DNA from: Limnohabitans sp.
GTDB taxonomy: Bacteria; Pseudomonadota; Gammaproteobacteria; Burkholderiales; Burkholderiaceae_C
NCBI GenBank assembly: GCA_024642215.1
Contig: JAHEBO010000006.1
Span: 1 to 41,960 of the forward strand
Length of the DNA: 41,960 nucleotides
Direction of reading: 5' to 3'
Every line of letters starts with the position of its first letter. The stretch's first letter is position 1. Made by a program: the position numbers and the translations under genes. Positions 9,987-14,233 of this stretch are shown here, piece by piece. A model generated the notes under the pieces. It made no database searches and was not told where the DNA came from. It saw only the letters and a program-made list of their open reading frames with translations.

Positions 9987-11525
9987 TTAGCCTTGTGCCG
10001 CCACCCGATCGGCTTTGCTTTGAAGCTTGTTCAAAGCACTCAAATAGGCTTTGGCGGAGGCCACAATGATGTCCGGATCGGATCCCACACCATTCACCAC
10101 GCGACCGCTGTTTTGCAGTCGAACCGTGACTTCGCCTTGGCTTTCGGTCGATCCACTGATGGCGTTGACAGAATAAAGCACCATTTCAGCGCCACTTTCA
10201 ACAATCGATTCGATGGCTTTCAGGGATGCATCGACCGGGCCGTTGCCATCGGATTTGCCATGGACTTCTTTGCCATCGACTGTAAAAACGATAGTGGCTT
10301 GAGGACGCTCGCCAGTTTCGCTATGTTGCGCCAATGAGACAAAAGCATACTGCTCTTTGTCTTGCGTGACGCTTTCTTCACTGACCAAGGCCAAGATGTC
10401 CTCGTCAAAGATCTCGCTTTTGCGATCCGCAAGCTCTTTAAACCGTGTGAACGCAGCGTTCAATTCAGATTCACTTTCAAGCACCACACCCAACTCTTGC
10501 AGGCGTTGTTTGAAAGCGTTGCGGCCACTCAATTTTCCCAACACAATTTTGTTGGCAGACCAGCCCACATCTTCTGCACGCATGATCTCGTAGGTGTCAC
10601 GCGCTTTCAAAACGCCATCTTGGTGAATGCCTGAAGCGTGTGCAAAAGCATTGGCGCCAACCACCGCTTTGTTAGGCTGAACCACAAATCCGGTGGTTTG
10701 ACTGACCATGCGGCTGGCGGCCACGATGTGAATCGGATCGATGTTCATCTCTAAACCGAAATAGTCTTTGCGTGTTTTAACCGCCATGACAATTTCTTCC
10801 AATGAACAGTTACCAGCGCGTTCGCCCAAGCCATTGATGGTGCACTCCACTTGGCGAGCACCGCCAAGTTTGACACCCGCCAAACTGTTGGCCACCGCCA
10901 TGCCCAGGTCGTTGTGGCAATGCACGGACCAAATGGCTTTGTCGGAATTGGGAATGCGCTCGCGCAATGTTTTGATGAACTGGCCATACAACTCTGGCAC
11001 CGCATAGCCCACAGTGTCTGGCACGTTGATGGTGGTGGCACCTTCAGCAATGACGGCTTCGAGCACTTGGCACAAAAAGTCCATGTCGCTGCGGTAGCCG
11101 TCTTCAGGGCTGAACTCCACATCGGCCACCAAGTTGCGGGCAAAGCGGACAGATTGCTTGGCTTGCTCCAAAACCTGTTCGGGCGACATGCGCAGTTTCT
11201 TTTCCATGTGCAGGGGTGACGTGGCAATGAAGGTGTGAATGCGGCCATTGTTGGCACCCTTCAAAGCTTCAGCCGCCCTAGAAATATCGCGGTCATTGGC
11301 GCGCGACAATGAGCAAATGGTGGAATCTTTGATGGCATTGGCAATGGCTTGTACCGCTTCAAAGTCGCCGTTGGAGCTGGCTGCAAAACCGGCTTCAATC
11401 ACGTCCACGCGCAATCGTTCCAATTGACGCGCAATGCGCAGCTTTTCGTCACGGGTCATAGAGGCACCGGGTGATTGTTCACCGTCGCGCAATGTCGTGT
11501 CAAAAATAATCAATTTATCGGCCAT
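9987..11525 (-). CDS. leuA: 2-isopropylmalate synthase
   Basis: A 512-residue LeuA that condenses acetyl-CoA with 2-oxoisovalerate, the committed step of leucine synthesis. The catalytic TIM barrel starts with [13 protein letters not shown] (Arg13-Asp14) and carries the metal-binding HCHND at 202-206; the C-terminal roughly 130 residues form the LeuA regulatory domain that binds leucine. The Shine-Dalgarno CCAGGAGTG precedes the ATG. A leucine-rich leader ORF and a terminator hairpin lie in the 187 bases upstream (11570-11679), implying transcription attenuation in addition to feedback inhibition. It is last in the ilvB-ilvH-ilvC-pssA-leuA run of genes. Confidence 0.97.
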
Positions 11526-11569
11526 GTTTCACTCCTGGTTTGAAATCTTCAAAAAAGCAAATTGAAAAT

Positions 11570-11602
11570 AAAAAAAGCCCGCTGCGGTTGGCAAACGGGC
11601 TT
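11570..11602 (-). terminator. Attenuator terminator of the leuA leader
   Basis: On the minus strand AAGCCCG (11602-11596) pairs with CGGGCTT (11581-11575), with an extra TGC/GCA pairing inside the loop, followed by seven T (11576-11570). It stands 45 bases before the leuA ATG and 24 bases after the leader ORF stop, so it is an internal, conditional terminator for leuA. The same GCCCG arm can pair with CGGGC at 11641-11637 inside the leader ORF. Confidence 0.85.
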
Positions 11603-11625
11603 GATGGGAAATAGAACAGCGTGCG

Positions 11626-11679
11626 CTACATATCCCGCCCGAGGGGCGTCAGCAGTAGGGCTAGCAAATTCAATTTCAT
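11626..11679 (-). CDS. leuL: Leucine-rich leader peptide of leuA
   Basis: A short ORF on the minus strand encodes MKLNLLALLLTPLGRDM, then TAG. Seven of 17 residues are leucine, six of them in residues 5-13 (codons CTA, TTG, CTG and CTC). Such a run is the hallmark of an attenuator leader peptide: scarcity of charged Leu-tRNA stalls the ribosome here. Downstream, CGGGC (11641-11637), in codons 13-15, can pair either with GCCC upstream (11647-11644) or with the 5' arm of the terminator (11600-11596), giving the expected pause and antiterminator alternatives. No clear Shine-Dalgarno is seen. The peptide itself probably has no other function. Confidence 0.8.
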   Translation of the reverse strand: MKLNLLALLLTPLGRDM

Positions 11680-11703
11680 GAAAAGACTGTAACACAAGTT
11701 TTT

Positions 11704-11726
11704 AAAAACTGTTTACTGGTGTAAAC
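11704..11726 (-). terminator. Weak hairpin with T run at the pssA stop
   Basis: On the minus strand GTTTAC (11726-11721) and GTAAAC (11716-11711) pair around ACCA, followed by AGTTTTT. The stem includes the pssA stop codon. It is AT-rich and short, so it may be a weak terminator separating pssA from the leuA leader, or nothing. Confidence 0.3.
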
Positions 11727-14134: not shown

Positions 14135-14152
14135 GTGCGATTCCTCTTTTCG

Positions 14153-14191
14153 CCGCCCTCCCCTGCACACGGTAATGTGCAGGCTTGGCGG
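14153..14191 (-). repeat. Intercistronic hairpin between ilvB and ilvH
   Basis: CCTGCACA (14162-14169) pairs perfectly with TGTGCAGG (14176-14183) around a 6-base loop, and an outer CCGCC (14153-14157) / GGCGG (14187-14191) extends it. No T run follows on the minus strand; the ilvH Shine-Dalgarno comes next. It could be a processing, stabilising or attenuating element that adjusts IlvB:IlvH ratios. Confidence 0.65.
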
Positions 14192-14233
14192 TCAATAGAT
14201 TCTTCTAAAGTTAATTCAAATGATGGGCGTGGT

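Follow-up and report, generated by a model that had tools for sequence, protein, structure and literature searches.

A predicted leaderless leucine attenuator before leuA in Limnohabitans sp. and related bacteria

In the stretch of 41,960 nucleotides of Limnohabitans sp. DNA analyzed here, referred to as the window, leuA is in all likelihood controlled by a ribosome-mediated transcription attenuator, the leader peptide of which would be translated from a leaderless transcript. The gene (positions 9987 to 11525, minus strand, with its ATG at 11525 and an SD-like AGGAG) encodes 2-isopropylmalate synthase according to NCBIfam model TIGR00973 (702 bits, above the cut-off). A pssA-like open reading frame (ORF) upstream of the leader ends at 11713, and ilvC, ilvH, and ilvB follow further upstream. 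As claimed in the original prediction, a 17-codon ORF with seven Leu codons is located in front of leuA, extending from the ATG at 11679 to a TAG stop codon at 11626 (11626 to 11679, minus strand) and encoding MKLNLLALLLTPLGRDM. The intrinsic terminator (11570 to 11602, minus strand) likewise has the described form, with the arms AAGCCCG (11602 to 11596) and CGGGCTT (11581 to 11575) and a T7 tract at 11576 to 11570, corresponding to U7 in the RNA. The region thus holds the three components by which attenuators are recognized, i.e., an ORF rich in codons for the end product before the gene, a terminator between the two, and a predicted antiterminator sharing a strand with the terminator. According to the proposed mechanism, a ribosome provided with sufficient charged tRNA-Leu would reach the stop codon and cover a segment termed region 2, allowing the terminator to form and halting transcription before leuA, whereas a shortage of leucine would stall the ribosome at the CUA/CUG run, leaving region 2 free to capture the 5' arm of the terminator, and leuA would be transcribed. 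When the interval from 11526 to 11712 was compared with shuffled sequences, its predicted fold was more stable (z = -2.20), 5 of 200 shuffles being equally good.

For comparison, related candidate loci were collected with a LeuA scan, and the best 80 of 582 were kept. They represent Limnohabitans, Acidovorax, Polaromonas, Variovorax, and other Comamonadaceae; the nearest LeuA among the matches listed, 99% identical, is that of a Limnohabitans MAG. A leader of 16 to 20 codons lies directly before leuA in 47 of these best 80 of 582 loci, which together with the window gives a set of 48. The leaders were scored for their number of Leu codons, a start at ATG, a length close to 17 codons, and GR close to the end; in this set Leu richness and partly the G-R motif are present by construction, whereas the -10 element, the CUA codons, and the terminator were not among the criteria. 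Two ORFs (L047 and L076) were dropped as false, and two starts (L009 and L066) were corrected manually in knowledge of the -10 position.

The leader stands out in the window by its composition, being the only one of 407 ATG ORFs of 12 to 28 codons (both strands, nested starts included) with at least 40% Leu. Its Leu codons are, in order, TTG, TTG, CTA, CTA, CTG, CTG, and CTC, and those in the putative control position are CTA at codons 6 and 8 and CTG at codons 9 and 10 (11650 to 11664, minus strand). The bias toward CTA extends over all 48 loci: this codon accounts for 114 of 225 leader Leu codons (51%) compared with 186 of 8711 (2.1%) in neighboring ORFs, which were mechanically picked at a length of at least 200 amino acids from the same 48 loci, and each of the 48 leaders contains at least one. 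At least four Leu codons are present in 47 of the 48 leaders, L052 having two, and outside the Leu codons the peptide varies among the relatives. A GGG codon occurs near the end of every leader (48/48), followed directly by CGG in 41 of 48. Counted from this GGG, CTA is found six codons ahead in 35 and four codons ahead in 37 of the 48 leaders (L063 entered these codon-position counts and the mean fold energies given below with the wrong GGG codon, and the swap and ribosome-state tests with the right one); the window leader has CTG four codons ahead and its two CTA codons six and eight codons ahead. The codon preceding GGG is CAC, AAC, or GAC in 38 of the 48 leaders, and the resulting peptide motif, H/N/D-G-R, corresponds to ACGGGCGG, which repeats the 3' arm of the terminator. 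The window has CTC as the preceding codon, which leaves only CGGGC.

A simple terminator scan of the region yielded one site against 0.9 expected by chance, and the weight of the argument therefore rests on conservation. A hairpin of the form GCCCG...CGGG follows the leader stop codon in all 48 loci (47 relatives and the window), its pairing holds in 97.2% of the alignment cells, and compensatory changes are seen, from AU to CG in 8 rows and from GC to AU in 12 rows of the 48. A terminator that merely closes the pssA operon, accompanied by a chance Leu-rich ORF and involving no leucine sensing, would look alike, and about one terminator-like site in the region is what chance would provide; such a coincidence is nevertheless extremely improbable, as the Leu-rich ORF recurs in 47 of the best 80 of 582 loci, each time with CUA and with an otherwise variable peptide, and as the 3' end of the ORF repeats the terminator arm.

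The attenuator model further calls for an antiterminator. Its 5' strand, region 2, is formed by CGGGCGGGA within codons 13 to 16 (11633 to 11641, minus strand), the portion of the leader that includes the conserved GGG and the CGG next to it. In the predicted fold, its 3' strand, region 3 (11596 to 11609, minus strand), combines UCCC with GCCCG, the latter being also part of the terminator 5' arm. The pairing of CGGGC (11641 to 11637) with the GCCCG of the terminator, put forward in the original prediction, is present, but the helix given there was too short, as the predicted 2:3 helix is extended by GGGA (11636 to 11633) pairing with UCCC (11609 to 11606). The core ACGGGC/GCCCGU is paired in 96.2% of the cells; across the 48 rows its columns are nearly invariant, and no covariation was found in it. 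The fold prediction places the stop codon and the conserved GCGCACGC that follows (11618 to 11628, minus strand; conserved columns) in a small hairpin at the apex of the antiterminator, for which the register of the family pairs in 78.5% of the cells with no compensatory change, while the window folds in another register. Mean predicted energies, with L063 treated as stated above, were -18.4 kcal/mol for the terminator, -17.4 kcal/mol for the antiterminator, and -6.4 kcal/mol for a hairpin between region 2 and an upstream region 1 (1:2 hairpin). The antiterminator formed by native leader and spacer was better than that of swapped combinations in 36 of 48 loci, by a mean of 1.6 kcal/mol, with kinship among the loci ignored. 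The 1:2 hairpin fared differently: the GCCC (11647 to 11644) with which CGGGC had been proposed to pair is there and the hairpin is predicted by folding, yet native sequences surpassed swapped ones in just 20 of 48 loci and the mean z score against shuffles was -0.31, so that this part of the scheme does not rise above shuffled or swapped sequence.

The effect of ribosome position was predicted for the stage before the terminator 3' arm is made. Under an assumed ribosome footprint, region 2 was predicted to occupy region 3 with a mean probability over the 48 loci of 0.96 for a ribosome on the fourth codon ahead of GGG, 0.00 for one on the stop codon, and 0.22 in the absence of a ribosome. At equilibrium, the terminator was favored in all ribosome states tried; consequently, the attenuation model must be kinetic, as is also the case for classical attenuators. 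The Leu codons, region 2, region 3, and the terminator recur in the relatives in the geometry that the model needs, and the Leu codons and the terminator, the conservation of which the original prediction had named as the comparative check, are both conserved.

The start of the leader suggests an RNA with no 5' untranslated region (UTR). An extended -10 promoter element, TGTTACAGT, is located at 11686 to 11694 (minus strand), with no good -35 element, and is separated by 6 nt from the leader ATG. As a rule, transcription starts about 7 nt after the -10, and the predicted start in the window is the A of this ATG. In all 48 loci, TAnnnT ends 6 nt (31 rows), 7 nt (16 rows), or 8 nt (1 row) before the leader ATG, each time with TG one base upstream; L039 has a second TAnnnT match at 11 nt. 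A pyrimidine (C or T) directly precedes the ATG in 46 of 48 leaders, in keeping with a pyrimidine-purine start. An SD-like 4-mer (AGGA, GGAG, GAGG, or AAGG at -18 to -5) is found at none of the 48 leaders compared with 46 of the 48 leuA starts. As judged from the sequence, a promoter placed for an AUG start is here combined with the lack of an SD motif; an RNA start at the leader AUG is strongly predicted, and the element of the window is very probably leaderless. Another 37 leaders, found with a covariance model and absent from its training set, show -10 distances of 6 (9 leaders), 7 (13), 8 (3), 9 (1), and 10 nt (11), i.e., 6 to 8 nt in 25 of them. Nine of the 11 leaders with a distance of 10 nt are from Variovorax, and with a distance of 9 to 10 nt the RNA would have a 5' UTR a few bases long. 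The leader stop codon is TAG in 44 of the 48 aligned loci and in 35 of these 37 leaders.

The leader ATG lies just 33 bases past the pssA stop codon, a proximity that would also suit an ordinary attenuator with its RNA start further upstream, e.g., through read-through from ilv-pssA, the -10 by the ATG being fortuitous. We consider this improbable in view of the spacing of 6 to 8 nt in 48 of 48 loci and of the missing SD-like 4-mers at all 48 leaders. The same spacing, measured to the farthest in-frame ATG, is found in 34 of 44 leaders from other families of the order that were picked by their 3' end alone (described below) compared with at most 1.6% of 427 other ATGs. For the leaderless attenuator, the predicted promoter between pssA and leuA makes it plausible that leuA is regulated separately from ilv-pssA, as originally proposed.

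Among the best 80 of 582 loci, the 33 remaining ones comprise 24 that match the covariance model, 7 with no match, and 2 (L018 and L062) that are incomplete. The 7 loci in the fetched stretch of which no leader was found (L022, L033, L037, L043, L045, L047, and L075) have leuA 16 to 122 nt behind pssA, which suggests that leuA has joined the ilv-pssA transcript there. One of the 24 matches (L064) lies at a contig end, and the other 23 precede an additional gene that separates pssA from the short leuA and was named long-form leuA by eye from N-terminal or C-terminal sequence. In these 23 of the best 80 of 582 loci (L071, L049, L079, L036, L051, and 18 others), the leader is situated about 1.6 to 1.9 kb before the short leuA, and the two synthase forms may share one leader. 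In L054, from position 1378, the leader is present and the spacer continues directly with an internal portion of the long leuA; the terminator and the gene start seem to be deleted or misassembled. A match to the model with an E value of 1e-8 or better was obtained for 89 of 150 genomes in the window's family (G698 over half the model only), the other 61 giving none at this threshold. In a search of 399 genomes of the order, E values below 1e-9 were reached only in the window's family and in genus g18 of family f10; in the latter, the leader precedes a long-form leuA in the three loci that were read in plus orientation. The N-terminal 60 residues taken from a similar gene of f10 match PRK03739 and leuA_yeast. 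The leader is hence kept before two forms of leuA, the long form belonging to a different NCBIfam subfamily. Inspection of 23 model matches obtained with strict filters in the order identified 14 as leaders, with E values of 1.7e-10 or better. The nine weaker matches (2.4e-7 or worse) resembled, on visual inspection, ordinary terminators or other loci and were rejected.

Other families of the order also carry Leu-rich leaders before leuA, the 3' end of which is of a different kind. LeuA was found in 170 of 200 sampled genomes, and 80 upstream regions from 40 families were picked by hand, L160 comprising only 91 bases. A score including Leu content, 3' motif, and -10 spacing called a leader in 49 of the 80 regions; these leaders, being partly picked on the -10 spacing, were kept out of the spacing statistic. 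With a 3' end reading CTGCTGCG...stop as the sole criterion, an ATG leader was obtained in 35 of the 80 regions, representing 21 families, and 9 pattern-match loci brought this set to the 44 leaders used above; L164 (motif, no ATG) and L231 (chance match) were left out. An SD-like 4-mer is present at 1 of the 44 leaders compared with 28 of 35 leuA starts. The stop codon of these leaders is TAA in 29 of 44. CTA makes up 2.7% of the Leu codons in these leaders, and the rare-codon trait is not one that they have in common with the window's family. In the 30 nt past the stop codon, C is at least twice as frequent as G in 41 of the 44 leaders and in none of them (0/44) in the next 30 nt; as C also exceeds G past the stop in the window's family (0.40 versus 0.21), the contrast is one of degree. 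Of the 49 score-called leaders, 4 showed a U-rich stretch behind their best hairpin according to a detector that misses some real terminators, e.g., those of L146 and L153. The pattern CTGCTGCGCNNNGCGCGCTRA was found in 45 of 300 genomes of the order (46 places), where its backwards control matched a single time; of a class sample of 274 genomes, 3 of them from the window's family, one contained the pattern. It was absent from all nine genomes of the window's family in the order sample. Inspection of 10 of the 46 places, mostly with no leuA assigned, showed nine to precede leuA and one to be due to chance; behind three of these nine leaders (L222, L223, and L224) lies a long-form leuA.

Many other families of the order thus seem to share the leaderless type of Leu leader before leuA, but not the terminator. 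For families with no U run, Rho-dependent termination is the simplest proposal, hinted at by the C-rich, G-poor tract after the stop codon and by the rarity of detected U-run hairpins; as a Rho site, 30 nt of C-rich sequence are no more than suggestive. In such a version, the almost invariant ORF end CTGCTGCTGCGC-NNN-GCGCGC-stop would lead directly into about 30 nt of C-rich, G-poor sequence serving as a Rho loading site; completion of the leader would expose this site and allow Rho to end transcription, and a stalled ribosome would prevent this. The proposed homology of the two leader types is based on position, Leu content, and the spacing of the promoter rather than on an alignment; at the 3' end the two types differ. 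A tentative scenario, somewhat more doubtful than probable, is that a leaderless leuA leader was ancestral to this order of betaproteobacteria and, in many families, was ended by Rho after CTGCTGCTGCGC-NNN-GCGCGC-stop; in the window's family, in which the leader also stands before long-form leuA, a compact intrinsic terminator together with rare CUA codons would have taken the place of the Rho arrangement. The predicted leaderless start and the leaders of the wider order with their different 3' end are points that go beyond the original prediction.

Leu attenuators as a kind are already known. The leader of the enterobacterial leu operon (leuL) has a Leu-rich leader ORF, mutually exclusive antiterminator and terminator structures, and rare CUA codons. 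The leader in the window shares these features but is shorter and predicted to be leaderless. A comparative study of proteobacterial attenuators reportedly appeared in 2004. Searches with the Rfam leader families gave no match at the gathering score in the leader-leuA region. The sole Rfam match at this score in the window is the ilvH RNA (RF02993, 92.9 bits, 14138 to 14205, minus strand), a second conserved RNA element of this gene cluster, located where ilvH begins. In Epsilonproteobacteria, the LeuL ORF before leuABCD is described as short, with rare Leu codons (CUA, CUC, and CUG) near its end and with an RNA that ends shortly after the stop codon; as the search for those ORFs required a ribosome binding site, they are leadered, in contrast to the predicted leaderless leader of the window, and the likeness is one by description (PMC3847290). 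The trpL attenuator of Sinorhizobium meliloti resembles the element predicted here in that its RNA begins at the leader ATG and that an antiterminator competes with a terminator, but it senses tryptophan, and its terminated RNA and peptide act in trans (PMC7298713). For Corynebacterium glutamicum leuA, a leader peptide is mentioned in PMC3890552. In the accessible part of PMC2965389, the word leu is absent and the sole mention of Betaproteobacteria concerns a transposon.

Actinobacterial leuA, too, is preceded by a Leu-rich upstream ORF (uORF), for which PMC1262725 proposes a LEU element with a pseudoknot and a base stem between the Leu codon run and the SD sequence. By analogy with this known proposal for leuA leaders, the Leu codon run might hide the leuA ribosome site and exert translational control. 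Such pairing was not supported by 35 leaders taken from other families of the order, i.e., from outside the window's family, where the native Leu-run/SD combination was better than swapped ones in 17 of 35 and better than a shuffled SD in 15 of 35; the window, moreover, has a U-run terminator instead, and we regard translational control as very unlikely there. For transcription attenuation from a leaderless RNA, no description of this element in betaproteobacteria was recognized in the open-licence literature searched, nor was the combination of features itself.

The leader before leuA thus constitutes a defined, testable regulatory element of leucine synthesis in a large group of bacteria. 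Its relatives form a series in which similar leaderless leaders are seemingly wired to different termination machinery, and this opens the questions of how attenuation operates without a Shine-Dalgarno site and of how one type of attenuator becomes another.
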